From positions 964,696 to 1,028,695 of the forward strand of contig NZ_JARPUQ010000001.1 of the NCBI RefSeq assembly GCF_029537735.1: a DNA stretch of 64,000 bases, in the 5' to 3' direction. This document shows positions 38,901-52,815 of this stretch, piece after piece (within the stretch, counting starts at the first letter, position 1; every line of letters starts with the position of its first letter). Both the position numbers and the translations under genes were made by a program. The stretch is from Robiginitalea aestuariiviva (GTDB lineage Bacteria > Bacteroidota > Bacteroidia > Flavobacteriales > Flavobacteriaceae). Below the pieces are notes generated by a model. The model was not told where the DNA came from. It made no database searches and worked only from the letters and a program-made list of their open reading frames with translations.

Positions 38901-38945
38901 TGTAACCAAAGTCACAATAAGCAGCGGGCTTATTGGGTATCTTTG
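38901..38945 (+). promoter_or_regulatory. Crp/Fnr-type operator and promoter of the DUF983-crp-sulP operon
   Basis: Operator TGTAACCAAAGTCACA at 38901-38916 (centre 38908.5). -7 element TATCTTTG at 38938-38945, a full TAnnTTTG match. The centre-to-T distance is 29.5 bp, putting the operator at about -41.5. Because the operon encodes the presumed regulator, this predicts positive autoregulation. Confidence 0.8.
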
Positions 38946-38962
38946 GCCGAAAATTATAGTAC

Positions 38963-39361
38963 ATGTTCGCAAAAGGCAGTAAACTGTATAGCATCCTGGC
39001 CCTGAAATGCCCCCGATGCCATGAAGGGGAATTCCTCGAGAGCCACCCCTATAACCTGGCGAACATGAACCGGGTGCGGGAGTCCTGTCCCAAATGCGGC
39101 CTGAAGTATAAGATCGAACCCAGCTTCTATTACGGGTCCATGTATGTGTCGTATGCCGTAGGGGTGGCGGTTGCCGTCGCCGTCTATGTGCTTCTGCTTA
39201 TCTTTGGAATAGACCTTGGGGTAGGAGGCATTTTTGGCGTCATCGTGGGTGCCCTCGTGCTGCTGATGCCCTGGATTGGGGCCGTTTCCAAGGCCATCTG
39301 GGCTAGTTTTTTCTTCAAATACGACAAGGACATGGCCCGTAAAGCGAAAAGTACATTATGA
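38963..39361 (+). CDS. DUF983 family membrane protein with zinc ribbon
   Basis: Encodes 132 residues. Two CxxC pairs (Cys16/19 and Cys42/45) form a small zinc ribbon, and two transmembrane helices follow at about 58-80 and 83-108. This is the layout of DUF983 proteins, whose function is unknown. It is first in an operon with the Crp/Fnr gene (ATGA overlap, 4 bases) and a SulP transporter gene, and lies directly behind a Crp/Fnr-type operator. The paired cysteines could react with persulfides or bind metal; that is inference. Confidence 0.88.
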   Translation: MFAKGSKLYSILALKCPRCHEGEFLESHPYNLANMNRVRESCPKCGLKYKIEPSFYYGSMYVSYAVGVAVAVAVYVLLLIFGIDLGVGGIFGVIVGALVLLMPWIGAVSKAIWASFFFKYDKDMARKAKSTL

Positions 39362-39990
39362 TACAGGAACTCAGAGAAAGTTACGGGGCCCAGTTTGAAG
39401 AGGCGCTGCTGGCCGAAATTGCCCAGGTGGGCACCTACAAGGAAGTACAGGCCGGGCATAAGCTCATGGAGATCGGGGAGTACATCAAAGGGATGCCGCT
39501 TTTGATCTCGGGCGTAATCAAGGTGCTGCGGGAAGACTCCGACGGGGACGAACTGCTGCTCTACTACCTGGAACAGGGAGACACCTGTTCCATGACCATG
39601 AGCTGTTGTATGGGCCAGACCCGGTCCGAGATCCGTGCCATTGCCGAAACCGATGCCCGCCTGATCATGATCCCCATCCGGAAGATGGAGGAATGGACGG
39701 CCAAGTACCGCAGCTGGCGGAATTTTGTGTTCGACAGCTACAACAGCCGGCTCAACGAGATGCTGCAAACCATAGACAGCATCGCCTTTATGAATATGGA
39801 CGAGCGGCTGGAAAAATACCTGAAAGAAAAGGCGCGGGTAAACGATGAGCACATCATCCGGAACACCCATCAGGAGATCGCCTATGACCTGCATAGCTCC
39901 CGGGTGGTGATTTCCCGCCTCCTGAAGAAAATGGAGCAGCTGGGCAAGATTGAGCTGCACCGCAACTACATCAAAATCCTGGACCTTTGA
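39358..39990 (+). CDS. Crp/Fnr family transcriptional regulator
   Basis: Encodes 210 residues: a cyclic-nucleotide-like effector barrel (about 15-125), a long dimer helix (about 130-155) and a winged helix (about 160-208) with HTH NTHQEIAYDLHSSRVVISRLLKKM. The recognition helix has Arg at the positions of CRP Arg180 and Arg185 but Val in place of Glu181. Its only cysteines are Cys77, 83 and 84, clustered in the barrel (DTCSMTMSCCM), where a thiol- or metal-based sensor could sit; the cAMP-binding Arg-Ser pair is not evident. It lies between DUF983 and SulP in one operon with overlapping ends. It is the likely binder of the seven operators in this region. Confidence 0.93.
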   Translation: MIQELRESYGAQFEEALLAEIAQVGTYKEVQAGHKLMEIGEYIKGMPLLISGVIKVLREDSDGDELLLYYLEQGDTCSMTMSCCMGQTRSEIRAIAETDARLIMIPIRKMEEWTAKYRSWRNFVFDSYNSRLNEMLQTIDSIAFMNMDERLEKYLKEKARVNDEHIIRNTHQEIAYDLHSSRVVISRLLKKMEQLGKIELHRNYIKILDL

Positions 39991-41717
39991 AGCGCTTCTT
40001 CCCCATCCTGCAGTGGTTGCCTGCCTATAAGAAAACCTACCTTTCCGGAGATCTTTCTGCCGGCCTGACGGTAGGCATCATGCTCATCCCCCAGGGGATG
40101 GCCTACGCTATGATTGCAGGCCTTCCCCCAGTGTTTGGTCTGTATGCCGCCCTGCTCCCCCAGGTAATCTATGCGATTACCGGCACCTCCCGCCAGCTGG
40201 CGGTGGGCCCTGTGGCCATGGACTCCCTCCTGGTAGCCTCCGGTCTGGGTGCCCTGGCCCTGTCCGGGATTGAAGAATACATTGCCATGGCCATATTCCT
40301 GGCCCTGTTTATGGGAACCCTGCAGCTGGCCTTCGGGCTGCTGCGCATGGGGTTCCTGGTAAACTTTTTGTCCCGCCCGGTCATAAGTGGGTTTACATCC
40401 GCAGCGGCCATTATCATTGGGCTGAGCCAGCTCAAACACCTGCTTGGGACGGATATCGCCTCCAGCAACCAGATTCAGGTATTGCTGGTCAATGCCGCTT
40501 CCACTCTGGGGGATACCCACTGGCTTACCCTGGGAATCGGGGTGGTGGCTATCCTGCTCATCAAAGGCTTTAAGCGAGTGGCGCCCAAGGTGCCCGCTGC
40601 TTTGGTTGCTGTGGTCCTGGGCACGCTGGCTGTTTATTTTCTGGGCTGGCAGGAAGCCGGGGTCCGGATTGTGGGGGATGTACCCGGTGGATTACCCGGG
40701 TTCCGGCTCCCGGAGTTACAACCCGAACGTATTTCGGAGCTTTTCCCCATTGCCCTGGCCCTTTCCCTGATCGCTTTTATGGAAGCCATCTCTGTGGCCA
40801 AGGCCGTGGAGGAAAAACGGGGGGAAAACCGGGTGGACGCCAACCAGGAACTGGTGGCCCTGGGGCTTTCCAATATTGTAGGCTCCCTCTTCCAGTCTTA
40901 CCCCACCACAGGGGGGTTTTCCCGGACGGCGGTCAATGACCAGGCCGGGGCCCATACGGGGATGGCGGCCATAGTGAGCAGCCTGGTGGTCGCCCTTACC
41001 CTTTTGTTCCTGACCCCTGCCTTTTACTACCTGCCCAATGCGGTATTGGCGGCAATCATCATGGTGGCCGTGTTTGGCCTGATCGACGTGAAATATCCCC
41101 GTCAGCTCTGGAAAAACCGAAAGGACGAATTCGTGTTGCTGCTGACTACCTTTCTCCTTACCCTGGGGGTCGGCATCAAGGAGGGCATTTTGCTGGGGGT
41201 CCTGTTTTCACTCCTCTTGCTGGTGTACCGCAGCTCCAAACCCCACATCGCCATCCTGGGGCGCATCCGCGGCACCAATTACTTTAAGAACGTAAACCGC
41301 TTTGGGGAAGACATCGAGGAGTTCCCCTCCTTTTTGATCCTCCGCTTCGACGGGCAATTGTATTTTGGGAACAAGGATTATTTCCGGACCCAGCTGCGCA
41401 AGTATATGGCCCGGAAAGGGCCGGAACTGAAGTACGTGGTGCTGAATGCAGAAGCGATCCACTACATCGACAGCTCTGCCGTGTTCATGTTGCGTTCCCT
41501 GGTGCAGGAACTCCGGACCGAAGGGATCCGCTTCCTGCTGGCCGGCGCCATTGGCCCTACCCGGGATATCATCCACACCAGCGGACTCATTGACGACATT
41601 GGGGCAGACAACCTTTTTGTACGCACTTACGAGGCCTACGAGCACTGTGCAGATGCCGCGGCCAAATCCGAGGTGCAGCACAAAATCTCTACCCAGACTG
41701 CGCGGGGCCTTATGTGA
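39987..41717 (+). CDS. SulP family anion transporter with STAS domain
   Basis: Encodes 576 residues starting at TTG 39987, whose last two bases belong to the TGA of the Crp/Fnr gene. The N-terminus (KRFFPILQWLPAYKKTYLSGDLSAGLTVG) is exactly that of the family, so translational coupling is real. Residues 30-430 hold about 12 membrane helices with MLIPQGMAYAMIAGLPPV and QSYPTTGGFSRTAVN. The STAS domain lies at about 440-550 (IHYIDSSAVFMLRSL). It belongs to the long SulP/SulT type and probably moves sulfate. In this setting it may export sulfate made by sulfide oxidation, or import it. Confidence 0.94.
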   Translation: MKRFFPILQWLPAYKKTYLSGDLSAGLTVGIMLIPQGMAYAMIAGLPPVFGLYAALLPQVIYAITGTSRQLAVGPVAMDSLLVASGLGALALSGIEEYIAMAIFLALFMGTLQLAFGLLRMGFLVNFLSRPVISGFTSAAAIIIGLSQLKHLLGTDIASSNQIQVLLVNAASTLGDTHWLTLGIGVVAILLIKGFKRVAPKVPAALVAVVLGTLAVYFLGWQEAGVRIVGDVPGGLPGFRLPELQPERISELFPIALALSLIAFMEAISVAKAVEEKRGENRVDANQELVALGLSNIVGSLFQSYPTTGGFSRTAVNDQAGAHTGMAAIVSSLVVALTLLFLTPAFYYLPNAVLAAIIMVAVFGLIDVKYPRQLWKNRKDEFVLLLTTFLLTLGVGIKEGILLGVLFSLLLLVYRSSKPHIAILGRIRGTNYFKNVNRFGEDIEEFPSFLILRFDGQLYFGNKDYFRTQLRKYMARKGPELKYVVLNAEAIHYIDSSAVFMLRSLVQELRTEGIRFLLAGAIGPTRDIIHTSGLIDDIGADNLFVRTYEAYEHCADAAAKSEVQHKISTQTARGLM

Positions 41718-41757
41718 CAAAAGTCACTGTGGGCCAGGAGGCTGGCCGTTATCTTGC
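41713..41757 (+). promoter_or_regulatory. Crp/Fnr-type operator and promoter of the first MBL-rhodanese gene
   Basis: Operator TGTGACAAAAGTCACT at 41713-41728 (centre 41720.5), overlapping the SulP stop codon. -7-like TATCTTGC begins at 41750, one T short of TAnnTTTG. Spacing 29.5 bp, identical to the other six sites. Leader about 23 bases. Confidence 0.75.
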
Positions 41758-41784
41758 GGAAAAATTTCAAAAAAACCCAGCCTT

Positions 41785-43203
41785 ATGAAAGTTGAACAGA
41801 TCTATACCGGATGTTTGGCCCATGCCGCCTACTATATTGAAAGCAAGGGCGAGGCCGCAGTCTTTGACCCCCTGCGGGAAGTACAGCCCTATATTGACCG
41901 GGCGCAAATCGACAATGCGGAAATCAAATATGTCTTTGAGACGCATTTCCATGCAGATTTTGTAAGCGGCCACCTGGACCTGCGCAAAAAAACCGGGGCG
42001 GAAATTGTATTTGGCCCCAATGCCAAACCTGGTTATGAGGCCACGGTAGCGGAAGACGGACAGGTTTTCCGGGTAGGAGATTGCCAGGTAAAAGTAATCC
42101 ACACCCCCGGGCATACTATGGAAAGCACCACCTACCTGCTCATAGACGAGAAAGGCGAACAACACGGGATCATAACAGGCGACACCCTCTTTATTGGCGA
42201 TGTAGGCCGCCCGGACCTGGCCCAGCATGTGGTTTCCGAACTTACCGAAGAGAAACTGGCCGCCCACCTCTATGATTCCCTGCGCAACAAGATCATGCCC
42301 TTGCCGGACCACCTGATTGTATACCCGAACCATGGGGCCGGGTCTGCCTGCGGCAAAATGATGAGCAAAGAAACCACCGATACCCTGGGCCACCAGAAGG
42401 AGGTAAATTACGCCTTACGGGCAGACATGACCAAGGAAGAATTCATCAAGGAATTGCTGACCGGGCTTACCACCCCTCCGGGATATTTCCCCCAGAATGT
42501 GCTGATGAACATCAAAGGGTACGAATCCCTGGATGAGATTATGGAGCGGGGTACCCAGCCCCTGGACCCGGCTGCTTTTGAAGCTGCAGCAGAAGAGAGC
42601 GGTGCCCTGGTACTGGACACGCGCAAGGCTGACGATTTTGCAAAAGGCTTTATCCCGAACAGCATCAATATTGGCCTGGAAGGTAGTTTTGCCCAATGGG
42701 TAGGCGAAATGATCCCGGATGTGAAGCACCCTTTATTGCTGGTAACCGAAGCCGGTAAGGAAGAAGAAGCGGTCACCCGCCTCTCCCGTGTGGGATATGA
42801 CAATACCCTGGGATATCTGAAAGGGGGCTTCGAAGCCTGGAAGGCCGCAGGGAAGGATGTGGAAGAGACCCGCAGGATTACCGCAGCGGAACTCGAAAAA
42901 CAGGTCAATGCCGGCCACAGCCCAATGATCATCGATGTGCGCAAGCGCAGCGAATACGATTCCGAGCACCTGGTGGACGCGGTCAACATCCCGCTCAATG
43001 AGCTGAATAAGCACCTGGCGGAAATCCCTAAAGACAAGCCCTTTGTACTGCACTGTCAGGGCGGGTACCGGAGTATGATTGCCGCTGCCATGCTCAAACA
43101 GCGCGGTTGGGAAAACTTCACAGATGTCGATGGCGGGTTCGATGCCCTGAAGGAAACCGGCCTGCCCAGGACCGATTATGTGTGCCCTACCACGCTGCTG
43201 TAG
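41785..43203 (+). CDS. persulfide-dioxygenase-like MBL protein fused to two rhodanese domains (copy 1)
   Basis: Encodes 472 residues. An MBL domain (about 1-245) has THFHADFVSG (His54, His56, Asp58) and HTPGHTMEST and GDTLFIGDVGRPDL, the ETHE1-type iron site. Two rhodanese domains follow, about 270-360 and 370-468. Only the second has the catalytic Cys (Cys424 in HCQGGYRS); the first has no Cys at the active loop. These proteins oxidise glutathione or other low-molecular-weight persulfides to sulfite and pass sulfane sulfur to sulfite. It has its own operator and promoter. A terminator separates it from its paralogue. The ATG at 41785 is used. Confidence 0.9.
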   Translation: MKVEQIYTGCLAHAAYYIESKGEAAVFDPLREVQPYIDRAQIDNAEIKYVFETHFHADFVSGHLDLRKKTGAEIVFGPNAKPGYEATVAEDGQVFRVGDCQVKVIHTPGHTMESTTYLLIDEKGEQHGIITGDTLFIGDVGRPDLAQHVVSELTEEKLAAHLYDSLRNKIMPLPDHLIVYPNHGAGSACGKMMSKETTDTLGHQKEVNYALRADMTKEEFIKELLTGLTTPPGYFPQNVLMNIKGYESLDEIMERGTQPLDPAAFEAAAEESGALVLDTRKADDFAKGFIPNSINIGLEGSFAQWVGEMIPDVKHPLLLVTEAGKEEEAVTRLSRVGYDNTLGYLKGGFEAWKAAGKDVEETRRITAAELEKQVNAGHSPMIIDVRKRSEYDSEHLVDAVNIPLNELNKHLAEIPKDKPFVLHCQGGYRSMIAAAMLKQRGWENFTDVDGGFDALKETGLPRTDYVCPTTLL

Positions 43204-43224
43204 AGGGACATACCAAGCTTTATT

Positions 43225-43253
43225 GCCCCGGCCAACGCGCCGGGGCTTTTTTT
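43225..43253 (+). terminator. Rho-independent terminator between the two MBL-rhodanese genes
   Basis: Perfect 8-bp stem GCCCCGGC/GCCGGGGC (43225-43232 and 43239-43246, loop CAACGC) followed by seven T's. It ends the copy 1 transcript, so copy 2 depends on its own promoter. Confidence 0.9.
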
Positions 43254-43257
43254 GTTA

Positions 43258-43302
43258 TGTAACCGGAGTTACTGTATGCCCGGTTGGCCGCCGGTATTTT
43301 TG
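43258..43302 (+). promoter_or_regulatory. Crp/Fnr-type operator and promoter of the second MBL-rhodanese gene
   Basis: Operator TGTAACCGGAGTTACT at 43258-43273 (centre 43265.5). -7 element TATTTTTG at 43295-43302, a full TAnnTTTG match. Spacing 29.5 bp. Leader about 13 bases. Confidence 0.8.
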
Positions 43303-43319
43303 GGGAAAAGTTTGAAACC

Positions 43320-44732
43320 ATGCAAATTGAACAAATTTATACGGGCTGCCTGGCACAAGGCGCCTATTATATAGAGAGCAAAGGGGAAGCGGCCATTATT
43401 GACCCCCTGCGCGAAGTGGGCCCTTACCTGAAGCGGGCCCGCCAGGACGGTGCGGAAATCAAATACATTTTTGAGACGCACTTCCACGCAGACTTTGTAA
43501 GCGGCCACCTGACCCTGGCCGAGAAAACGGGGGCACCCATCGTTTACGGCCCCCTGGCGAATCCTAAATTTGACGCCATCATTGCCAAAGACGGGCAGGA
43601 GTTCCGGATCGGCGACCTTACCCTGATGGTACTCCACACCCCGGGGCACACCATGGAAAGCACTACCTACCTGCTCAAGGATGCCGAGGGGAAAGATCAC
43701 GCCATTTTTAGCGGGGATACGCTCTTCTTAGGCGATGTTGGCCGCCCGGACCTGGCCCAGAAGGCTGCAGACATGACCCAGGAACAACTGGCGTCCACTC
43801 TGTTCGACAGCCTGCGGAACAAAATCATGCCCCTGGCCGACGAGGTGGTGGTATATCCCGCCCACGGAGCCGGCTCCGCCTGCGGGAAGAACATGATGAA
43901 AGAAACCGTGGATACCCTGGGTCACCAAAAGGAGACCAACTACGCCCTTCGGGCAGATATGACCCGGGAGGAATTCGTGGCTGAGGTCACCGAAGGCCTG
44001 ATGCCACCCCCCAAATACTTCCCCCTGAACGTGAAGATGAACAAGGAGGGATACGAACATGTAGACGCCGTGCTGGAGCGGGGTACCCGCCCGTTACCGC
44101 CCGCCGCTTTTGAGGCCGTGGCCAACGAATCCGGCGCCCTGATCCTGGATGTACGCAAGGAAGAAGAGTTTGTAAAAGGCCACATCCCACGGGCTATTTT
44201 TATTGGCCTGGACGGCAGCTTTGCCCCCTGGGTAGGCGCCCTGGTAGCCGACACCGAACAACCCATCCTGCTGGTGGCCCCGGAAGGTCGGGAGGAAGAG
44301 GCAGTTATCCGCCTTTCCCGTGTAGGTTTTGACAATACCCTGGGTTACCTGGAAGGCGGTTTTGACGCCTGGAAAAAGGCCTCCTTTGAATACGACACCG
44401 TGAGCTCGGTAACAGCCGAAGACCTGGAGGAACTTATGGAAGAGGCCGAAGCCCTGCCGGTTTTTGACGTTCGCAAGAACAGCGAGTTCCTGTCCGAACA
44501 CCTGGTGGATGCCGAAAACACCCCCCTGGATTACCTGAATGACCACCTGGCCGAATTCCCTTCCGAGGAGGTGTTTTACCTGCATTGTGCCGGCGGATAC
44601 CGCTCTGTGATTGCAGCATCCATCCTCAAAAGCCGCGGGATCCATAACCTGGTAAACATCCTGGGTGGGTTTACATCCATCAAGGAAGCCGGGTTGCCGG
44701 TAACCGATTACGTTTGCCCGTCTACCCTCTGA
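43320..44732 (+). CDS. persulfide-dioxygenase-like MBL protein fused to two rhodanese domains (copy 2)
   Basis: Encodes 470 residues, collinear with copy 1 throughout. The same motifs appear: ETHFHADFVSGH near 52-63, HTPGHTMEST and GDTLFLGDVGRPDL in the MBL half, then two rhodanese domains. The first rhodanese again lacks its Cys (VAPEGREEEAV), and the second has Cys423 (HCAGGYRS). The paralogues should share the reaction, oxidising persulfide to sulfite with sulfur transfer, but differ in the linker and surface (EALPVFDVRKNSE). It is separately driven by its own operator. The ATG at 43320 gives the same N-terminus as copy 1. Confidence 0.9.
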   Translation: MQIEQIYTGCLAQGAYYIESKGEAAIIDPLREVGPYLKRARQDGAEIKYIFETHFHADFVSGHLTLAEKTGAPIVYGPLANPKFDAIIAKDGQEFRIGDLTLMVLHTPGHTMESTTYLLKDAEGKDHAIFSGDTLFLGDVGRPDLAQKAADMTQEQLASTLFDSLRNKIMPLADEVVVYPAHGAGSACGKNMMKETVDTLGHQKETNYALRADMTREEFVAEVTEGLMPPPKYFPLNVKMNKEGYEHVDAVLERGTRPLPPAAFEAVANESGALILDVRKEEEFVKGHIPRAIFIGLDGSFAPWVGALVADTEQPILLVAPEGREEEAVIRLSRVGFDNTLGYLEGGFDAWKKASFEYDTVSSVTAEDLEELMEEAEALPVFDVRKNSEFLSEHLVDAENTPLDYLNDHLAEFPSEEVFYLHCAGGYRSVIAASILKSRGIHNLVNILGGFTSIKEAGLPVTDYVCPSTL

Positions 44733-44766
44733 GGGAAAATGTTAAATTCCCGGAATTCGATGCTTC

Positions 44767-44811
44767 TGTAACCGTGGTTACTGACAGCAGGAGGGAAAGA
44801 TGGTAGTTTTG
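44767..44811 (+). promoter_or_regulatory. Crp/Fnr-type operator and promoter of a short structured transcript
   Basis: Operator TGTAACCGTGGTTACT at 44767-44782 (centre 44774.5). -7 element TAGTTTTG at 44804-44811, a full TAnnTTTG match. Spacing 29.5 bp, predicted start about 44816. The transcript meets a terminator at 44903-44937. Confidence 0.8.
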
Positions 44812-44815
44812 AGCA

Positions 44816-44937
44816 TATCGTCCGGGGAAGCCCCCGAGCATGGGAAGTTAAACTCCCGGGCCCACCCCGGAGGAAATGGTTGAGTTGATTGTTTTTAGTG
44901 AGGAAAGCGGCCGGTTTCAGGCCGCTTTCTTTTTTTA
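44816..44937 (+). ncRNA. candidate small RNA or attenuating leader
   Basis: About 120 bases from predicted start to terminator. A long interrupted stem is visible: TCCGGGG/CCCCGGA (44821-44827 with 44865-44871), then GCCC/GGGC (44830-44833 with 44858-44861) and GGGA/TCCC (44842-44845 with 44854-44857) with loop AGTTAAAC. A small reading frame with ATG at 44876 behind GGAGGAA is in frame with the downstream DUF3365 gene and runs through the terminator. It resembles no RNA family I recognise. It could be a free small RNA or a leader controlling the next three genes. Confidence 0.5.
44903..44937 (+). terminator. Rho-independent terminator ahead of the DUF3365 operon
   Basis: Perfect 10-bp stem GAAAGCGGCC/GGCCGCTTTC (44903-44912 and 44920-44929, loop GGTTTCA) then eight T's. 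It lies between the operator-promoter and the ATG at 44954, with no other promoter seen after it, so expression downstream needs read-through. Confidence 0.9.
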
Positions 44938-44953
44938 CCAAAACCGCATAGCC

Positions 44954-45517
44954 ATGAAAAAACTATTCTACGTATTTCTGTTGCTTACGGGGGTCTGGCA
45001 GTGCCGGCAGGCGGACCCTCCTGCCCTGACCGGCCCTGAAGCCCGGGAAATAGCTCTGGAAGCGCAAACTGCCCTGGGCCAGACCCTTAAGGCCAAGTTG
45101 CAATCCGAAGGTGCTGTTGAGGCCATTGGCTTCTGCAATGTGAACGCCATCCCCATTACAAAACGGGTAGCCGAAACGCGGGGCGTACGGCTGAAACGAG
45201 TTACCGACCGGCCCCGAAACCCCGAAAACCAGGCCACCCCTGCCGAAATCGCCATGATGTTACGCTTGCAGGAAGCCCCGGATACCACCCGTCTGCAACG
45301 GGAAGATATGGAAGGGATTCACTACTATACTCCCATTTACACGGCCAACCTTTGTATGCAATGCCACGGCCAGCCCGGAACGGAAATCCCACAAGAGGTG
45401 TTGGCGGTGCTCGCTAAAAAGTATCCCGCGGATGCCGCTACCGGGTATATGCCCGGGGAACTGCGCGGATTGTGGAAAATCACCCTTCCCTTAACTGATA
45501 AACCCCGGCAACCATGA
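44954..45517 (+). CDS. DUF3365 (Tll0287-like) haem-binding protein
   Basis: Encodes 187 residues. An N-terminal signal (MKKLFYVFLLLTGVWQC) may be a lipoprotein, although VWQC is an atypical lipobox. The Tll0287-like domain follows (FCNVNAIPITKRVAE, VKRVTDRPRNPEN-like), with a single c-type haem motif CMQCH (Cys134, Cys137, His138). Tll0287-like domains are periplasmic haem sensors or electron carriers. It heads an operon with the racemase and rhodanese genes and lies behind an intrinsic terminator. The ATG at 44954 gives the signal, but an in-frame ATG at 44876 would add 26 residues. Confidence 0.82.
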   Translation: MKKLFYVFLLLTGVWQCRQADPPALTGPEAREIALEAQTALGQTLKAKLQSEGAVEAIGFCNVNAIPITKRVAETRGVRLKRVTDRPRNPENQATPAEIAMMLRLQEAPDTTRLQREDMEGIHYYTPIYTANLCMQCHGQPGTEIPQEVLAVLAKKYPADAATGYMPGELRGLWKITLPLTDKPRQP

Positions 45518-46221
45518 AGACCCTCGGCATGATTGGCGGCACCTCCTGGCACGCCACCGAAGCGTATTACCGCATGATCAACGAAGGGGTTTCCCGCCAT
45601 ATCGGAACACAGGGCAACCCCGAACTCATCCTCCACAGCATCAATATCGAGGTGATGCGTTCCCGCGATGGAGACCGGATCAGGGCCAAATACCTGGAAG
45701 TGGCACGCCTGCTGGAACAACACGGGGCCCAGGGCATCCTGATTTGTGCCAACACCCCACATATGGTGTATGAACATGTGCAACCCCGGATAGGGATTCC
45801 CATTTTACACATAGCAGACGCTACGGGTGCTGCAGCGCAGGCACAAGGCTTAAAAACCCTGGGTCTTCTGGGGAACAAACCCACCATGACCGGGGATTTT
45901 ATCTCCGGCCGCCTGCAGCGGGAATTTGGCATCCGCACCCTGATCCCGGCCCTGGAGGGGCAGGAGCGCTCCAACCATTATGTTTCCAAAGAACTCACCC
46001 ATGGGAAGTTTACCCCGGAAGCCCGGGCATTTTTTACCGGGGAGATCCAAAAGCTGGCCGCAGCAGGCGCCCAGGGCATTATCCTGGGGTGTACGGAACT
46101 CCCACTGCTCATCCGGCAGGAGGAGGTAGATGTGCCGGTACTGGCCACCACGGACCTCCACGCCCGAATGGCGGTCGATTTTATCCTGGAAAGGGAACCG
46201 GGCACGCCCCCCGTTTTGTAA
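45514..46221 (+). CDS. aspartate/glutamate racemase family protein
   Basis: Encodes 235 residues, typical length. The two catalytic cysteines are seen in ICANTPHM (Cys78) and LGCTELPLL (Cys193), and the N-terminus MIGGTSWHATEAYYRMIN matches the YgeA-like branch of cofactor-independent amino-acid racemases. It would interconvert L- and D-amino acids. It overlaps the DUF3365 gene by 4 bases (ATGA) and lies 15 bases before a rhodanese gene, so it is cotranscribed with sulfur genes. The active-site thiols might be targets of persulfides, but its role here is unclear. Confidence 0.92.
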   Translation: MKTLGMIGGTSWHATEAYYRMINEGVSRHIGTQGNPELILHSINIEVMRSRDGDRIRAKYLEVARLLEQHGAQGILICANTPHMVYEHVQPRIGIPILHIADATGAAAQAQGLKTLGLLGNKPTMTGDFISGRLQREFGIRTLIPALEGQERSNHYVSKELTHGKFTPEARAFFTGEIQKLAAAGAQGIILGCTELPLLIRQEEVDVPVLATTDLHARMAVDFILEREPGTPPVL

Positions 46222-46236
46222 CTTCGCCCGCTCAAG

Positions 46237-46743
46237 ATGAAACTCAGATCCTCCTTATCCGTGCTTTTACTGGGCGTTTCTTCCCTTTGGGGAACCGCCT
46301 CGGCCCAGGAAGTAGGCAACAAGGCCTATGGGGTGCTGTTGAAGGGCCTGTTGTCCCGCAACGTACCCGAGGTAGATGTGGCCGGGGCACGCAAGCTGGA
46401 GGATGCCGTTTTCCTGGATGCCCGAACCCGGGAGGAATACGAGGTGAGCCACCTGCATTCGGCCCGCTGGGTGGGGTACGAAACTTTTACCCTGTCGCGC
46501 CTGGAAGGCTTGCCGAAAACTACCCCCCTGGTGGTCTATTGTTCGGTGGGCTATCGCAGTGAGAAGATAACGCGCCGCCTGCAGCGGGAGGGATATACCC
46601 GGGTCTTCAACCTTTATGGAGGAATTTTTGAATGGGTAAACCAGGGGCAACCCGTCAGGGACGAGCAAGGAGAAACCCAACGCGTACACGCCTACAATAC
46701 CCTATGGGGCGTCTGGTTGGAAACGGGGGAAAAGGTTTACTAA
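46237..46743 (+). CDS. exported single-domain rhodanese
   Basis: Encodes 168 residues with a cleavable signal (SLSVLLLGVSSLWGTASAQ). The rhodanese domain (about 45-150) contains FLDARTREEYEVSHL and the active Cys102 in VVYCSVGYRSEK. It transfers sulfane sulfur in the periplasm, perhaps accepting it from sulfide oxidation products. It is third in the DUF3365-racemase-rhodanese operon. A long inverted repeat (46745-46767) after its stop also serves the convergent desaturase gene as a bidirectional terminator. Confidence 0.92.
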   Translation: MKLRSSLSVLLLGVSSLWGTASAQEVGNKAYGVLLKGLLSRNVPEVDVAGARKLEDAVFLDARTREEYEVSHLHSARWVGYETFTLSRLEGLPKTTPLVVYCSVGYRSEKITRRLQREGYTRVFNLYGGIFEWVNQGQPVRDEQGETQRVHAYNTLWGVWLETGEKVY

Positions 46744-46744
46744 A

Positions 46745-46767
46745 AGGGGTAGCCGGCGGCTACCCCT
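46745..46767. terminator. bidirectional terminator-like hairpin
   Basis: AGGGGTAGCC/GGCTACCCCT (46745-46754 and 46758-46767). Four A's lie on the left, so the minus-strand transcript ends in a U-run; CTTTT lies further to the right. It separates two convergent operons and overlaps the stop of the desaturase gene. Confidence 0.65.
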
Positions 46768-47641
46768 CTGCTTTTGGTTTTGTAAATCCGTAAATATTCT
46801 GGTGGATAAAGTCCTTGGGAAATGCTTCATCCCCGGGGAACCCGATCGGGATAGTCCCGCTGTCTTCCGGCACGTAGTTGGTGCGGAACAAATAATCCCA
46901 AAGGCTCAGGCTGATTCCGAAATTCACACCGTAACTGCCGGCCGGCAGGTGATAGGCGTGGTGGTAGAGGTGCATCACCGGGTTGTTGAGGATGTATTTC
47001 AGCGGCCCCCAGGTGAGCTTGATGTTCGCATGGTTCAGGTGGCCTATGGAAATGGCGGCAAAATGCACAATATAGGCCTGCTCCGGCTCAAAGCCGCCCA
47101 GGATCATCACCCCAAAGGTCTTCAGGGGCTTGTACAGGACGTTTTCCATCCAGTGGTAGCGCAAATGCGCAGCAAAGCCCATTTCCTTCACGCTGTGGTG
47201 CACCTTGTGGAATTGCCAAAGCACGGGGTATTTATGCAGCAGGATGTGGGTAAACCACTGCACAAAATCCAGCACGATAAAGAATACCAGTAATTGCAGC
47301 CAGGCGGGCCAGGCGGCAATATCCACTATAGCCAGGCTTCGCGCGGTGACCCCGAACTCCCGGAACCCGAGTTCCAGCATCCGGTAGACCCCGCTGATGA
47401 TGATGGCAAAAAGGAAGAAATTAAAGAACATGTAAAAGGCATCCAACCAGAAATCCTTGCGGAAGATGGATTGGTTCTTGCGCCAGGGGAACAGGATTTC
47501 CAGCCCCCAGACCAGCAGGGAGATGGCAACCAGGCCCCAGAAGTAGTTGGTGTACCAGGGGACTTCAAAAAGGATGGACTTCCAGGTCCAGTTCAGGGTG
47601 CCCATAAAGGCACTGCCAAAGGCTTCCAGATATTTTTCCAT
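46760..47641 (-). CDS. sterol desaturase/fatty acid hydroxylase superfamily protein
   Basis: Encodes 293 residues with about 4-5 membrane helices and the eight-histidine di-iron motifs: HILLHKYPVLWQFHKVHH (near 130-148), GHLNHAN, and HLYHHAYH near 225. The family hydroxylates or desaturates lipids using O2 and electrons from a partner. Here it is last in an operon with sulfite-oxidase-like, cytochrome and sulfurtransferase genes, 2 bases after the sulfurtransferase. A lipid-modifying step tied to sulfur metabolism (for example sulfonolipid hydroxylation) is a speculative possibility. Confidence 0.87.
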   Translation of the reverse strand: MEKYLEAFGSAFMGTLNWTWKSILFEVPWYTNYFWGLVAISLLVWGLEILFPWRKNQSIFRKDFWLDAFYMFFNFFLFAIIISGVYRMLELGFREFGVTARSLAIVDIAAWPAWLQLLVFFIVLDFVQWFTHILLHKYPVLWQFHKVHHSVKEMGFAAHLRYHWMENVLYKPLKTFGVMILGGFEPEQAYIVHFAAISIGHLNHANIKLTWGPLKYILNNPVMHLYHHAYHLPAGSYGVNFGISLSLWDYLFRTNYVPEDSGTIPIGFPGDEAFPKDFIHQNIYGFTKPKAEG

Positions 47642-47643
47642 AG

Positions 47644-48591
47644 CTAATTAAAAATTTGGGTCAGACTGTCTTGTTGAATGGGGGCGTCCTCCCGCATGCT
47701 CCATTCCAGCCAGGAGCCGTCAAAGTTACGAACCCTGTTGTGGCCAAGCAATTGGGTGAGAACAAAATACGTATGCGCGGACCGCACTCCGGAATGGCAA
47801 TAGGCCACCACGTCGGCGGAATCGTTTTCCATGAGGAACCCGTAACGTTTATACAGGTCTTCCGGGCTTTTAAAGCGTTTATCCTGATTGTAATGGGTGG
47901 CCCCGGCCCAGTCGCGGTTCAGGCTGCCAGGGATATGGCCTGCGCGCACCGCCCCGCTTTTCTGACGAAGGCCGCTGTATTCTTCCGGGGTACGCGTATC
48001 CAGGATCACCAGGTCCGGCTCTCCCAGCCGGGCCAGGAGTTCGGAAGCCTGTATCCCGGAACCCGGATTCCCGGTTTCGGGAAAGCGAAAAGTTGCGGGA
48101 ACAGGTGTAGGGAGCTCTGTTGTCATGTCTTGCCCGGCTTCCGTCCAGGCCTGCACCCCTCCATTCAGCAGGCGAATGCGATCGTATCCGTGGGCCTGCA
48201 GTACCCACCAGAGCCGCGCAGCGTTACAGCCTGCTTCATCATCGTAGATAATCAGGGTATCCGTTTCGGCAATGCCCAGGCTGGAGAGCAGCGCCTCCAG
48301 GGCTTCTTTTCCGGCCATTAGCCCGGGTACAGCCCCTTCATGGTCCTCAATATCCGGGCGCCAGAGTTGTACGGCCCCGGGAATATGGCCTGCCTCAAAA
48401 GCAGGCTTTTTTCTAAAATCGACCAGCTTCAGGTCCGTGCGGCCCATGTTTTCCGCCAGCTCCCCTACTTCAATCAGGGCAGTGGGGTTGGCATAGGCCC
48501 AAACGGCAATGGCTTCCACCTCGGGTTCCGGGGTGCCTTTGCATGCCGTGAAGGCCATCAGCAGTGCGGCAAGGCTAATTCTCCAGGACAT
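47644..48591 (-). CDS. two-domain sulfurtransferase (thiosulfate/mercaptopyruvate type), lipoprotein
   Basis: Encodes 315 residues. The signal ends in FTAC (lipobox). Two rhodanese domains lie at about 40-160 (VDFRKKPAFEAGHIPGAV) and 180-305 (ILDTRTPEEYSG). The active Cys265 is in VVAYCHSGVRSAH; the loop CHSGVR resembles thiosulfate sulfurtransferases more than the CGSGVT of mercaptopyruvate enzymes. It moves sulfane sulfur from thiosulfate to a thiophilic acceptor in the periplasm. It overlaps the cytochrome gene by 17 bases. Confidence 0.91.
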   Translation of the reverse strand: MSWRISLAALLMAFTACKGTPEPEVEAIAVWAYANPTALIEVGELAENMGRTDLKLVDFRKKPAFEAGHIPGAVQLWRPDIEDHEGAVPGLMAGKEALEALLSSLGIAETDTLIIYDDEAGCNAARLWWVLQAHGYDRIRLLNGGVQAWTEAGQDMTTELPTPVPATFRFPETGNPGSGIQASELLARLGEPDLVILDTRTPEEYSGLRQKSGAVRAGHIPGSLNRDWAGATHYNQDKRFKSPEDLYKRYGFLMENDSADVVAYCHSGVRSAHTYFVLTQLLGHNRVRNFDGSWLEWSMREDAPIQQDSLTQIFN

Positions 48592-49063
48592 ACCATTCGA
48601 TGTTTTCCAGGTTCTGCCTGCGCCCCTTTTTCTGAGGGGCGTAGTTGGTTGCCAGGTAGTTCAGGATAATTTCTTCGTTATTTCCAAGGTCCCATAAGTT
48701 CTGGGTTTGTTGCATCCAACGGATGGTGGCCTCCCAACTTTCCCGCGACATCCGGTTTTGGGTTACCAGGCGGGCGGAATGGCAGTTGGTGCAATTGTTC
48801 ACCACGGTCATATACCCTTCCTCGGCCACAAAGCCCGTACGCACATGGATGCCATCTTCCACCTTGTCCCAGTCTTCCTCGGCAACTGCGTCTGCGGCCG
48901 CTGGCTCCACTACCACTTCAGGGGCAGCCTTGAAGGCGGTCAGGCCGGGGTCTACCATCAGATAGATAAGCAGGGAGGCAATTACCAGGAAGAACCCGAA
49001 GATCATCCGAAGCATGCGCGAGATGGCCTTGGCGCTTTTGTGAAAATCGTGTTGGGGCTCCAT
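48575..49063 (-). CDS. membrane-anchored c-type cytochrome (SorB-like)
   Basis: Encodes 162 residues. The ATG at 49063 follows the stop of the molybdoenzyme gene by 1 base; a TTG at 49072 is less likely. A transmembrane helix lies at about 17-37 and a single c haem site CTNCH at Cys91/Cys94/His95. By context it receives electrons from the sulfite-oxidase-like enzyme encoded just upstream, like SorB in sulfite dehydrogenase SorAB, and passes them to the respiratory chain. Only the haem motif and the gene pairing support this; the rest of the protein is not recognisable. Confidence 0.85.
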   Translation of the reverse strand: MEPQHDFHKSAKAISRMLRMIFGFFLVIASLLIYLMVDPGLTAFKAAPEVVVEPAAADAVAEEDWDKVEDGIHVRTGFVAEEGYMTVVNNCTNCHSARLVTQNRMSRESWEATIRWMQQTQNLWDLGNNEEIILNYLATNYAPQKKGRRQNLENIEWYVLEN

Positions 49064-49064
49064 C

Positions 49065-50285
49065 TTATGCAATCTTTATGGCTATACGGTGGCAGGCATT
49101 ATTCAGGTACCCCTTGGGGTTCCAGCCGGGCAGTACCATGGGTTGCGCGTTGCCCCGGCTGTCTGTAGCCCGGACCCACAGTTCGTAATACCCTTTTTTC
49201 GGGAAGTTGGCGTTGCCGGAAAAATGCTGCCAGGCCAGGCGGTTCGCCGGGGCCTCCAGCGCACAGGCCTTCCAGGTGCTTCCAAAATCAATGGAGTATT
49301 CCACCTTTGACACCTCCAGTTCGCCTGCCCAGGCATGCCCGCGGAACGACAGGCTGTTTCCGGGAGAAAGCGTTGCCCCGGATTTGGGGTAGGTAATCAG
49401 GGATTTTACGGGCATGGATTCGATAATGCACATGTCCTCATCGGCCACCTTGGCGCCGGGTTCTACCGGCTCGCAGGGTACGCGGTACGAACTGCCTGTC
49501 ATTTTCTCCCCATCGTGCACCCGGTCGCGGATGCTCAGTCCGGTTAGCCATTTCCCCGAAGTGGAGGCCGGCCATCCGCCGGCAATCAGGCGCAGGGGGT
49601 ACCCGTGGGCCAGCGGGATGTCCTTCCCATTCATCTGGAAGGCCACCAGGGTTTCGTCCTGCAGGGCTTTTTCGATAGGGATACCCCGGGAAATGGGTTC
49701 CTTGGTCGGGTCGCCGCTCAGGTGGGTGTCTGCGGCGTGGTACCCGATGTAAACGGCATTAGATCCAACACCCACATCTTCCAGCAGGTCGCGCAGGCGC
49801 ACGCCGGTCCAGGTGGCACAGGAAACCGCACCTATGGTCCATTGGTTTCCTTTGGCCGGGGGATCAAATTCACTCCGCCCGTTGCCGCCGCACTCCAGGG
49901 TAAGCTGGTAGGTGTGTTGCGGAAAGCGCGTCTTCAGGTCATTAAGCGTATAGGTTTTCGGGTTGCGGGCAGCCTCCCCGTCGAAGGAGAGGGTCCAGCC
50001 AGCCACATCGATATTTTCCGGGATCTTCCCATTGTTCCGGATAAACATGAATTTATTGGGCGTGATCTTGTCGTCCAGCAGGTGCGCCTGGGCTTCCATA
50101 TTCCAGGGCTTGTCGTTCAGCAGGACCATTTGCGGGTCCTTGTTGAACATCTTAAAGGGGTCCGGGTCCTGCAGCCCCAGCAGGGGCAAGCCTACGGGCA
50201 GGCGGTTGCCGAAGACAATTTCGGCGCCCAGCAGGGCACTTAGGGCGGTAAGCCCAGATTTCTGGACGAAATGACGTCTTTCCAT
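49065..50285 (-). CDS. sulfite oxidase family molybdopterin oxidoreductase (SorA-like)
   Basis: Encodes 406 residues. A twin-arginine-like signal (ERRHFVQKSG) directs folded export. The molybdopterin domain has Cys156 in AVSCATWTGVRLRDLL, the Mo ligand of the sulfite oxidase family, and the Mo-co dimerisation domain lies at about 300-400 (VSKVEYSIDFGSTW). It should oxidise sulfite to sulfate in the periplasm, with electrons leaving through the adjacent cytochrome. It is first in a four-gene leftward operon driven by an operator at 50339-50354. Cofactor biosynthesis genes are not in the window. Confidence 0.9.
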   Translation of the reverse strand: MERRHFVQKSGLTALSALLGAEIVFGNRLPVGLPLLGLQDPDPFKMFNKDPQMVLLNDKPWNMEAQAHLLDDKITPNKFMFIRNNGKIPENIDVAGWTLSFDGEAARNPKTYTLNDLKTRFPQHTYQLTLECGGNGRSEFDPPAKGNQWTIGAVSCATWTGVRLRDLLEDVGVGSNAVYIGYHAADTHLSGDPTKEPISRGIPIEKALQDETLVAFQMNGKDIPLAHGYPLRLIAGGWPASTSGKWLTGLSIRDRVHDGEKMTGSSYRVPCEPVEPGAKVADEDMCIIESMPVKSLITYPKSGATLSPGNSLSFRGHAWAGELEVSKVEYSIDFGSTWKACALEAPANRLAWQHFSGNANFPKKGYYELWVRATDSRGNAQPMVLPGWNPKGYLNNACHRIAIKIA

Positions 50286-50309
50286 ATACGTTAGGGTTTG
50301 AACATTTTT

Positions 50310-50354
50310 TAAACATAGTACTTTTTGAGAATTGATATTGTAACCAATGTTACA
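50310..50354 (-). promoter_or_regulatory. Crp/Fnr-type operator and promoter of the sulfite-oxidase operon
   Basis: Operator TGTAACCAATGTTACA at 50339-50354 (centre 50346.5), a perfect palindrome in its arms. Minus-strand -7 element TATGTTTA at 50317-50310. Centre-to-T distance 29.5 bp, as at the other sites, read on the opposite strand. Confidence 0.8.
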
Positions 50355-50445
50355 AAACCACAGGCTTCGCAGAAAAGCCCCTCTTGTGGAAAAGGGAGGA
50401 TAAATCTTGAAAATACCCGTAAAAAGGGGCGATTTCCCACAGAAC

Positions 50446-50490
50446 TGTAACCTCGGTTACACAGGCCTAAGGGTGGGTTGCGTACCTTTA
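50446..50490 (+). promoter_or_regulatory. Crp/Fnr-type operator and promoter of the SQR gene
   Basis: Operator TGTAACCTCGGTTACA at 50446-50461 (centre 50453.5), perfect in its arms. -7-like TACCTTTA at 50483-50490. Spacing 29.5 bp; leader about 19 bases. It is divergent from the sulfite-oxidase promoter, 107 bp between centres. Confidence 0.8.
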
Positions 50491-50513
50491 TATCGTCTTT
50501 AAAATACCTGACC

Positions 50514-51761
50514 ATGGACAAACATTTTGAAATTCTGATCATCGGCGGAGGCACCGCGGGGATCATGACCGCTGCAACCCTGCTCAACGCAGATCGGAAA
50601 TTAAAAGTAGGCATCATAGAACCTGCGGAAACCCACTACTACCAGCCCGCCTGGACCCTGGTAGGCGCAGGTACCTTCAGCTATAAAAAAACCGCCCGCC
50701 CCATGGCGTCGGTGATCCCCAAAGGCGCCACCTGGATACAGGATGCCGCTACCGGCTTTGATCCGGAGAACAATACGGTAACCACCCAAAGCAAAGGCGC
50801 CCTCACCTACGATTACCTGGTAGTGGCCCCGGGCCTGGTCTATGACAACAGCCTGGTTCCCGGCCTTGGAGATGCCCTGGATAAAGGGGTGGTCTGCAGC
50901 AACTACACCGACCCGGAACACACCTGGGAGGTAGTGCGCAATTTCAAAGGCGGCACTGCCTTGTTTACCCAGCCCACCACACCTATAAAATGTGGCGGCG
51001 CCCCCCAGAAAATCATGTATCTGGCGGAGAGCTATTTCCGCAAATCCGGAGTGCGCAGTAAAACCGATGTGGTTTTTGCCACCCCGGGCACTGTGATTTT
51101 CGGGGTGCCGGAAATCAAAAAAACCCTGCTGGAAATTGTGGACCGCAAGGATATCAACCTGCGTTTCGGCTATAAGCTGGTTAAGGTAGACGGACCCAAC
51201 CAGATTGCCTGGTACGAGTTTGCCGACCATATGCGGGAACACAACCACAAACACATCAAAACGGAGACCGATGGCAACCTGACCGGTATCCATTACGACA
51301 TGATGCACACGGCCCCGCCTTCAGTAGCTCCCGAATTCATTCAGAATTCCCCTCTGGTGAATGCCTCCAAGTGGGTGGATGTGGACAAACATACCCTGCA
51401 ACATACCAAGTATCCCAACATTTTCAGCCTGGGCGATGTAGCCGGTTTGCCCACGGCCAAAACCGGGGCGGCCATCCGCAAACAAGTGCCTGTGGTGGTA
51501 GACAACATCCAACTGCTGCGTTCCCGCAATATCCTCGGGAACAAGGCATACAACGGATATTCTTCCTGCCCCCTGGTAACGGATTACGGAAAAATGGTAT
51601 TGGCCGAATTTGATTATGACAACAATTTTACGCCCGACCCCAAGCTGAAGCAGATGCTGATTTCAGATTCCTCCAAGGAACACTGGCGGCTGTGGATGCT
51701 GAAAAAGTATGGGCTGCCTTACCTTTACTGGAATAAGATGCTCAAAGGCAAAGAGGTATAG
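50514..51761 (+). CDS. sqr: sulfide:quinone oxidoreductase
   Basis: Encodes 415 residues, a flavoprotein of the SQR family. It begins with the FAD loop EILIIGGGTAGIMTAATLL, and the second GxGxxG-like site TVIFGVPE lies mid-protein. Cys128, Cys160 and Cys352 (the last in YSSCPLVTDYG) correspond to the three conserved SQR cysteines that hold the sulfur and trisulfide. FSLGDVAGLPTAKTGAAIRKQ near 305-325 is the FAD/quinone site. It oxidises sulfide to a persulfide and reduces the quinone pool at the inner membrane. The ATG at 50514 is chosen. It is expressed from its own operator. Confidence 0.94.
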   Translation: MDKHFEILIIGGGTAGIMTAATLLNADRKLKVGIIEPAETHYYQPAWTLVGAGTFSYKKTARPMASVIPKGATWIQDAATGFDPENNTVTTQSKGALTYDYLVVAPGLVYDNSLVPGLGDALDKGVVCSNYTDPEHTWEVVRNFKGGTALFTQPTTPIKCGGAPQKIMYLAESYFRKSGVRSKTDVVFATPGTVIFGVPEIKKTLLEIVDRKDINLRFGYKLVKVDGPNQIAWYEFADHMREHNHKHIKTETDGNLTGIHYDMMHTAPPSVAPEFIQNSPLVNASKWVDVDKHTLQHTKYPNIFSLGDVAGLPTAKTGAAIRKQVPVVVDNIQLLRSRNILGNKAYNGYSSCPLVTDYGKMVLAEFDYDNNFTPDPKLKQMLISDSSKEHWRLWMLKKYGLPYLYWNKMLKGKEV

Positions 51762-51767
51762 TCCTTT

Positions 51768-51812
51768 TGTAACCCAGGTTACGGAACTCCGGGCAAAGCC
51801 CTTGTTTCTTTG
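51768..51812 (+). promoter_or_regulatory. Crp/Fnr-type operator and promoter of the YeeE/YedE pair
   Basis: Operator TGTAACCCAGGTTACG at 51768-51783 (centre 51775.5), six bases after the SQR stop. -7-like TTTCTTTG at 51805-51812, a one-base departure from TAnnTTTG. Spacing 29.5 bp. Confidence 0.75.
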
Positions 51813-51841: not shown

Positions 51842-52402
51842 ATGGATTGGATTTATGAACCCTGGCCGTGGTATGTCTCCGGCGCGGCCATTGCCCTGAT
51901 CATGCTGCTATTGCTGCTGGTGGGTAAGAACTTCGGAATGTCTTCGAACCTCAGAACCCTTTGCACCATCTGCGGGGCAGACCGGAAAGCCGAGTTTTTC
52001 CGCTTTGACTGGTCTGCGCAGAAATGGAACCTGATCGTGGTGCTCGGGGCCATTATCGGGGGCTTTATCGCCTCCTTCCTCCTGACGGCAGACCCGGCCG
52101 TGCACATTAACCCGAATACCGTCCAGGGCCTGCAGGCTCTCGGTTTTGAAAGCGCAGGCACAGCCTATCTGCCTTCTGAACTCTATGCCATGGACGTCCT
52201 GACCGACCCGAAAAGCCTGTTGCTACTGGCCATAGGTGGTTTCCTGGTAGGTTTTGGCGCCCGCTATGCAGGGGGGTGTACCTCCGGGCACGCCATATCG
52301 GGATTGAGTAACCTGCAATGGCCGTCTCTGGTAGCCGTTATCGGCTTTTTTGCCGGTGGCCTGTTTATGATTTATGTCTTATTCCCTTTAATCTTTTCGT
52401 AA
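51842..52402 (+). CDS. YeeE/YedE family sulfur transporter, N-part
   Basis: Encodes 186 residues with about five membrane helices. The family signature GARYAGGCTSGHAISGLSNL lies at about 140-159, with Cys146 as the conserved cysteine lining the thiosulfate path in YeeE/TsuA proteins. It probably forms a unit with the next gene, which supplies the other half of the fold. Together they import thiosulfate or move another sulfur species across the inner membrane. The stop TAA and the next ATG share bases (TAATG). Confidence 0.88.
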   Translation: MDWIYEPWPWYVSGAAIALIMLLLLLVGKNFGMSSNLRTLCTICGADRKAEFFRFDWSAQKWNLIVVLGAIIGGFIASFLLTADPAVHINPNTVQGLQALGFESAGTAYLPSELYAMDVLTDPKSLLLLAIGGFLVGFGARYAGGCTSGHAISGLSNLQWPSLVAVIGFFAGGLFMIYVLFPLIFS

Positions 52403-52815
52403 TGCGTACACTGAGCTATCTTCTTATTGGTATCGTTTTCGGAATTACCATGTTCAAATCCGAGGCGGCCTCCTGGTTCCGCATCTACGAGATGTTTAAG
52501 TTTGACGCCTTCCATATGTATGGTATCATCGGTACGGCCGTGGTACTGGGGGTGATCATCGTGGCGGCCATCAAAAAGTTTAAGATCAAATCCTTTTACG
52601 GGGAACCCATTGTTTTTGAACCCAAGGAAAAGCGTTTCTGGGGCTACGCCCTGGGGGGAGTGCTTTTTGGTCTGGGTTGGGCGCTGGCCGGGGCGTGTCC
52701 CGGGCCCATGTTCACCCTGGTTGGAGCCGGGTTCCTGCCCATTCTGGTGGTGATCGCCTTTGCCATTCTGGGCACCTTTGTTTATGGCCTTCTGCGGGAT
52801 AAACTGCCGCATTAA
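52402..52815 (+). CDS. YeeE/YedE family sulfur transporter, C-part
   Basis: Encodes 137 residues with about four membrane helices. The signature GWALAGACPGPMFTLVGAG contains Cys99, equivalent to the second pore cysteine of YeeE/YedE proteins. It starts at the ATG at 52402, inside the stop of its partner gene (TAATG). Split YeeE/YedE pairs beside sulfide oxidation genes are common. This is the last gene of the sulfur regulon in this window. Confidence 0.88.
   Translation: MRTLSYLLIGIVFGITMFKSEAASWFRIYEMFKFDAFHMYGIIGTAVVLGVIIVAAIKKFKIKSFYGEPIVFEPKEKRFWGYALGGVLFGLGWALAGACPGPMFTLVGAGFLPILVVIAFAILGTFVYGLLRDKLPH

Follow-up and report, generated by a model that had tools for sequence, protein, structure and literature searches.

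The window analysed here, a 64,000-nucleotide (nt) stretch of the Robiginitalea aestuariiviva genome (contig NZ_JARPUQ010000001.1, positions 964,696 to 1,028,695; the coordinates below are those of the window), encodes a Crp/Fnr-family regulator with three cysteines, Cys77, Cys83 and Cys84 (39358..39990, plus strand), among genes for the oxidation and transport of sulfur compounds, and carries a set of palindromes that may be the operators of this regulator. An exact-pattern search for the 16-mer TGTnACN4GTnAC found it at seven places (10 strand-hits), namely 38901, 41713, 43258, 44767, 50339, 50446 and 51768, in agreement with a preliminary description of this DNA, compared with a mean of 0.23 and a maximum of four in 100 dinucleotide shuffles of the window. 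Operator 1 (38901..38916, plus strand) and the -7 element 21 nt past it (TATCTTTG, 38938..38945, plus strand) precede the regulator operon, which consists of genes for a DUF983 protein (38963..39361; PF06170, 7.2e-06), the regulator and a SulP-family transporter with a STAS domain (39987..41717; Pfam, and TIGR00815 above cut-off), all on the plus strand. Operator 2 (41713..41728, plus strand; -7 element TATCTTGC at 41750) is followed by the gene of PDO1, a persulfide-dioxygenase-like protein with a metallo-beta-lactamase (MBL) fold and a double rhodanese (41785..43203, plus strand; Pfam and comparison with PDB and NCBIfam, the profile searches beginning at 41797, four codons past the assigned start), and operator 3 (43258..43273, plus strand; TATTTTTG at 43295) by that of PDO2, a second protein of MBL fold and rhodanese type (43320..44732, plus strand; Pfam, searched from 43329, three codons past the assigned start). 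Operator 4 (44767..44782, plus strand; TAGTTTTG at 44804) lies upstream of a gene for a Tll0287-like protein (44954..45517, plus strand; PF11845, searched from 44876), downstream of which are racemase and rhodanese genes.

Operator 5 (50339..50354, minus strand) has its -7 element TATGTTTA from 50317 on the minus strand and precedes a sulfite-oxidase unit that encodes a SorA-like molybdoenzyme (49065..50285), a SorB-like cytochrome (48575..49072), a double rhodanese sulfurtransferase (47644..48591; Pfam, NCBIfam) and a member of the fatty-acid hydroxylase family, all on the minus strand. The names SorA and SorB are given by similarity only, because the NCBIfam cut-offs were missed (222.6 bits against 600 for NF052245, and 29.8 bits against 93 for NF052246, the cytochrome having no Pfam match either). 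Operator 6 (50446..50461, plus strand; TACCTTTA at 50483) precedes the gene of a mitochondrial-type sulfide:quinone oxidoreductase (SQR; 50514..51761, plus strand), which is far nearer to the mitochondrial SQOR structure (PDB chain 6mp5 E, 2.4e-100) than to sulfide-quinone reductase 3hyv (4.4e-17) and the other listed matches. Operator 7 (51768..51783, plus strand; TTTCTTTG at 51805) is followed by the two halves of a YeeE/YedE-type sulfur transporter (51842..52402, PF04143, 1.5e-20; and 52318..52815, DUF6691, by Pfam; both on the plus strand). Six of the seven operators stand directly before a transcription unit, as had been reported of all of them; the promoter at 44767 leads instead into a terminator-ended RNA that precedes the Tll0287 gene.

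The identical geometry attributed to the seven sites was found in every one of them: the TAnnTTTG-like -7 element begins exactly 21 nt past the 16-mer, with the operator centre 29.5 bp before the first base of the box. At this distance at least four of the six defined bases of the box are matched at all seven sites, at least five at six sites and all six at three, the poorest box (4/6) being that of the operator at 41713. At every other spacing between 0 and 60 nt, two of the seven sites at most have a box of at least four matches, and the background rate of such a match is 0.027 per position. The second half-site reads GTCAC at two of the operators. The only other exact copy of the 14-bp core in the window, at 57434 within an open reading frame (ORF) for a sodium:solute symporter, has boxes at 21 nt that score one and zero of six on the two strands. 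According to the available text of PMC9723704, the sigma-A TAnnTTTG box spans positions -12 to -5 at mapped transcription starts of Flavobacterium psychrophilum, so that an operator centred 29.5 bp upstream of the box's first base is at -41.5. The class II position of about -41.5 that had been proposed for the operators is thus supported, with start positions taken from F. psychrophilum and with the spacing found in relatives. The reported lack of -33 elements was borne out on inspection by eye: none of the seven window promoters has a TTG in the stretch 12-25 nt upstream of its -7 box. This says little, because a clear -33 peak is likewise absent from 219 other TAnnTTTG promoters roughly collected from relatives.

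The spacing is conserved far beyond the window. Among the best 80 named loci of 134 confirmed places in relatives (1.53 Mb), the 14-bp core occurs at 300 places (600 strand-hits), and an exact TAnnTTTG stands 22 nt past it, which is 21 nt past the 16-mer, in 133 cases, compared with at most two at each of the other 61 distances from 0 to 61 nt. Three control palindromes, themselves rarer (72, 8 and 78 strand-hits against 600), gave at most four box matches at any distance. When the better strand is taken, the box at the fixed distance matches five or all of the six bases at 268 of the 300 sites, and 77 of the 80 loci contain at least one such site. The promoter profile from 279 site-strand cases, for which the core bases and the box were selection criteria, reads TGTAAC-N4-GTTACTG-N20-TAnTTTT(G/A); T1 (94%), A4 (93%) and T13 (83%), as well as T16, G17 and T41, are conserved though not selected for, and most of the spacer between operator and box is not conserved. 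The downstream half-site is often GTTACTG, its TG (present in 142 of the 279 promoters) breaking the palindrome. The idea that a -33 element located 20 nt upstream of the -7 box ends in this TG was rejected, as the 219 other promoters have no TTG peak at that distance (five at 20 nt; the highest count, 11, is at 16 nt).

The genes behind these sites encode SQR, persulfide-dioxygenase/rhodanese proteins, sulfite exporters, sulfite oxidases, peroxiredoxins and the proteins of the regulator operon. In the 80 loci, 265 of the 270 first ORFs after sites fall into 15 recurrent clusters. The sulfur-related part comprises PDO and rhodanese proteins (93, as 89 + 4), TauE (29), SQR (22), SorA (9), YeeE (8) and a SoxA/TsdA-type cytochrome (2), and the rest comprises DUF983 (32), SulP (13), a YgaP-type membrane protein (12), the regulator itself (12), 1-Cys peroxiredoxin (11), the fatty-acid hydroxylase family (10), Tll0287 (7), cydA (3) and an outer-membrane efflux protein (2). 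HemN and a DsrE-like protein are among the five single cases. Clusters with no homologue in the window are named from one representative each (Pfam matches of the relatives' peroxiredoxin, CydA and outer-membrane efflux protein). Among mechanically called ORFs, sites precede 237 of 522 in the target families and only three of 885 others, and such sites are not, as might have refuted the regulon, equally common before unrelated genes. Since some families were defined by carrying sites, the fairest counts come from the genes that the window itself contains: sites precede 17 of 19 SQR, 44 of 51 PDO2, 40 of 67 PDO1, 24 of 28 DUF983 and nine of 13 SorA ORFs. The TauE ORFs of relatives have sites in 29 of 35 cases and the regulator ORF itself in 11 of 83. 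No site precedes SorB (0/12), the second YeeE half (0/17), the racemase (0/8) or the sulfurtransferase (0/6), all of which lie inside units in the window.

Outside the window, a scan of the R. aestuariiviva genome (exact core, 3.22 Mb), of the kind that had been suggested as a check, added four places where the geometry recurs exactly or almost exactly. Three of the 28 core places beyond the seven have a box of at least five of six at 21 nt. The four sites, whose target genes were named from their sequences, precede a gene for a TlpA-like thioredoxin (C2:520739, with box TATTTTCG at 21 nt), a peroxiredoxin gene (C3:226779), an OEP-MFP-RND efflux operon (C3:220102) and cydAB (C3:223352, with a full box at 22 nt, one base off). 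The regulon thus appears to include the sulfur genes first assigned to it and to be wider than had been claimed, extending to peroxiredoxin, cytochrome bd, TlpA-like and RND efflux functions. A second operator cluster, with peroxiredoxin, cydAB and the efflux operon, is seen both at C3:219000-229000 of this genome and at locus L225.

The palindrome also keeps company with the regulator. The regulator of the window is 91% identical to its counterpart in Robiginitalea sediminis, and homologues at E <=1e-40 are found in 118 of 149 Flavobacteriaceae genomes (with identity down to about 40%, so that paralogues may be among them) and in 57 of 247 genomes sampled across the phylum. Twenty of the 31 family genomes with no match at E 1e-40 (several of them incomplete assemblies, 66-99%) were compared with 20 regulator-bearing genomes that rank next after the 30 whose loci were fetched and whose regulators are about 58-66% identical to that of the window; in both samples the flanks of PDO loci extended at most 1.5 kb and a site was counted anywhere in the locus. 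Eighteen of the 20 regulator-less genomes have a PDO homologue (19 loci), and the exact core is present at none of the 19. In the regulator-bearing genomes the best PDO locus has a site with a good box in 14 cases, a site with a poor box in two and no site in four. A good site (-7 match of at least five) is accordingly found at the best PDO locus of 0 of 18 regulator-less and 14 of 20 regulator-bearing genomes (Fisher 4e-6). At four phylum-level loci (L219-L221 and L223), TGTAACTAATGTTACA is present just past the regulator gene, and the boxes 21 nt on are weaker (three to five of six). Covariation of residue 183 of the regulator with a site nearby (Val 13/21, Glu 1/7 of phylum-level loci; Fisher 0.077) was considered and is not counted as support.

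The protein encoded at 39358 belongs to the Crp/Fnr superfamily, with matches of 35.9 bits to PF00027 and 34 bits to PF13545, both above cut-off, and to none of the curated families within it to which it was compared. It scores 38.4 against a cut-off of 244.95 for NtcA (TIGR03697), 53.1 against 266 for CRP of the cyclic AMP (cAMP) type (NF008732) and 22.2 against 228 for FNR (NF008365). FNR holds a 4Fe-4S cluster on four cysteine ligands, three of them near the N terminus, and Cys77, Cys83 and Cys84 are the only cysteines of the regulator. The recognition helix, SSRVVISR, corresponds to STRVTVTR in the alignment with NtcA, and the two other proteins of this genome above the HTH_Crp_2 cut-off have TATETAIR and TATESCIR at the same position. 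Among 138 loci (named and unnamed sets, which may overlap), Cys77 is conserved in 138, Cys83 in 137 and Cys84 in 134, and all three fall in the segment aligned with the cAMP pocket of CRP. Glu72, Arg82 and Ser83 are cAMP-binding residues of CRP; the position of Glu72 is occupied by Met79 in the regulator (Met in 126 of the 138 loci), that of Arg82 is variable (R, K, Q, I and others) and that of Ser83 is mostly Ser. We infer from the position of the conserved cysteines that the regulator may be a thiol switch that senses sulfane sulfur. The top PDB match of the regulator is 3dv8, titled only as a Crp/Fnr regulator, with NtcA next. Cysteines of 3dv8 align with Cys77 and Cys83, and the cysteine pair may extend beyond the regulator's own family.

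Taken together, the spacing, the specificity of the targets, the co-occurrence with the regulator, the recognition helix and the mapped flavobacterial starts support the Crp/Fnr sulfur-oxidation regulon of the preliminary description, as far as sequence comparison can. The 39358 protein is probably a dedicated class II activator of the Crp/Fnr type for a sulfide/sulfur regulon, with persulfide or polysulfide as its signal. Its dimer would bind TGTAAC-N4-GTTAC(TG) centred at -41.5 and touch RNA polymerase whose sigma-A occupies the TAnnTTTG -7 box, giving class II activation. The predicted targets are its own operon, the enzymes of sulfide oxidation (with persulfide, sulfite and sulfate as products) and transporters of sulfur and sulfite, together with peroxiredoxin, cytochrome bd and an RND efflux operon; in Robiginitalea a small RNA would be a further target. 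Cys77 with Cys83/Cys84, at the site of the cyclic-nucleotide pocket of CRP, would sense sulfane sulfur in the form of persulfide or polysulfide. A broader proposal can be put forward tentatively, at somewhat less than even weight: that across the family a three-cysteine sulfane-sulfur switch replaced cyclic-nucleotide sensing in the pocket and was combined with NtcA-like DNA recognition at a rigid -41.5, the small RNA of Robiginitalea extending the sulfide response to other mRNAs.

Several observations weigh against a dedicated activator of this kind. The core alone is not enriched genome-wide, occurring at 35 places in the R. aestuariiviva genome compared with 70 for the reversed control pattern, and what is unusual is its clustering and spacing; 25 of the 28 core places beyond the seven lack a box of at least five of six at 21 nt. 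The same box is missing at 32 of the 300 sites of relatives. Coverage is partial for SulP (13/41), the fatty-acid hydroxylase family (11/29), the first YeeE half (8/19), Tll0287 (7/34), rhodanese (3/19) and cydA (3/11), some of these genes being inside operons, and in only 43 of 78 loci does the 900-nt stretch before the regulator contain a site. Six of the 20 PDO loci in regulator-bearing genomes have no good site, and when one core mismatch is allowed, two of the 19 regulator-less PDO loci have a candidate site with a 5/6 box. For cysteine sensing, the position of the residues is the whole of the evidence.

Downstream of the 44767 promoter, an intrinsic terminator lies before the start of the Tll0287 gene (44954). 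The candidate small RNA thereby delimited (44816..44940, plus strand, both ends being predicted) consists of a variable 5' part, a 23-nt core, GGTTGAGTTGATTGTTTTTAGTG, at 44878-44900, and the terminator. The core is identical in the window and in six loci of relatives (L070-L075, four titled Robiginitalea and two from metagenome bins titled Bacteroidetes), in all of which the operator is located 76-119 nt upstream of it. The promoter spacer and the 5' part of the RNA vary among the seven loci, the latter in sequence and length, and the terminator stem is conserved with a variable loop; both sides are changed in one of 22 pairs, a slight covariation. The fold of the window RNA is better than those of 200 shuffled sequences (z -3.4) and leaves the core mostly unpaired, and the consensus fold has eight weak pairs in or beside the core, mostly A-U and G-U. 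The core is present in seven of 10 Robiginitalea genomes and missing from three; outside the genus it was not found in a search of 249 family genomes, of which only that of R. aestuariiviva matches. No Rfam family matches the RNA at gathering score, and a search of the R. aestuariiviva genome for a 14-nt complement of the core with at most one mismatch (shorter seeds being untried) found none except at its own locus.

The RNA behind the 44767 promoter has its own promoter and an intrinsic terminator, which are conserved together as in bacterial trans-acting small RNAs, and is probably a small RNA driven by the regulator. Less likely than not, though of some weight, is the alternative that it acts in cis, as an attenuator in the leader of the Tll0287 unit, and not in trans: the RNA adjoins Tll0287 on its upstream side in the window and at L070-L075, and the genome offers the core no 14-nt complement, but the invariant core precedes the terminator with no conserved antiterminator partner seen, and the 5' part differs between loci in sequence and length.

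It is rather unlikely that the same activator and regulon answer to another signal, such as low oxygen, the general thiol or redox state, or nitric oxide (NO), with the sulfur genes forming part of a wider redox response. Oxygen or NO is sensed by other Crp/Fnr proteins, cysteines are able to sense thiols in general, and cytochrome bd, peroxiredoxin, HemN and TlpA-like targets would fit a redox or oxygen response. However, 164 of the 270 first target ORFs are of sulfur-oxidation, sulfurtransferase or sulfur-export type (including the one DsrE) and 44 more belong to the regulator's own operon, and three cysteines are too few for the four-cysteine iron-sulfur set of FNR and lie elsewhere in the protein. 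That the sites are repressor operators which block the promoter is improbable. Geometry alone does not prove activation, and according to the available text of PMC9774590 the persulfide regulators CstR and SqrR are repressors and FisR an activator; nevertheless, a fixed position at -41.5, kept by 268 of 300 sites, would be expected of contact with the polymerase, whereas a repressor would presumably tolerate varied positions. Close to negligible is the probability that the palindromes serve another Crp/Fnr paralogue or a different family and that the neighbouring regulator is incidental: two to 20 first-look candidates per regulator-bearing genome mean that paralogues may exist in relatives, and just one of the seven phylum-level homologues with Glu183 has a site near it, but the R. 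aestuariiviva genome has only two other HTH_Crp_2 proteins, with different helices, the exact site is absent from the PDO loci of the 18 regulator-less genomes, and helix and DNA site are both NtcA-like.

Marine Flavobacteriaceae commonly feed on algal material. No account of how they sense and dispose of sulfide, and no description of a sulfide regulon under a Crp/Fnr regulator in flavobacteria, was found among the matches listed in the open PMC literature (titles and the starts of abstracts). If a dedicated sulfide/sulfur activator acts at these sites, a single operator of fixed geometry may make the genes of the sulfide response predictable across many genomes, and may provide an inducible class II promoter of natural origin for a phylum whose promoters are unusual. 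The regulator would also be a test case of whether the cyclic-nucleotide pocket of Crp can become a thiol switch for sulfur.

The regulator may be compared with four kinds of known system. In Acinetobacter baumannii, a Crp-like protein that shares 50% identity with E. coli Crp is persulfidated when the cells are exposed to sulfide (PMC7315123), and the available text of that source describes no dedicated sulfur regulon for it, in contrast to the one proposed here. FisR, SqrR/BigR and CstR respond to persulfide or sulfane sulfur through two or three cysteines and govern sulfide detoxification, as far as the available text of PMC9774590 relates. They belong to other protein families, none of them Crp/Fnr; FisR acts at sigma-54 promoters, and SqrR and CstR repress. 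E. coli CRP has the same two Pfam domains as the regulator in the same order, and differs from it in the replacement of Glu72 by Met79 and in the variability of the position of Arg82. Class II geometry is known for E. coli CRP and is shared with the regulator's sites. In DNA recognition the regulator resembles NtcA, the cyanobacterial nitrogen regulator, for which the available text of PMC3898017 gives class II activation from a GTAN8TAC site located near -41.5; in one described case, 22 nt separate the site from the -10 box. The two proteins have in common a site of the GTA-N8-TAC type, its position at about -41.5, a distance of 22 nt from core to box and a similar recognition helix, and they differ in effector, in targets and in the phylum in which they are found.

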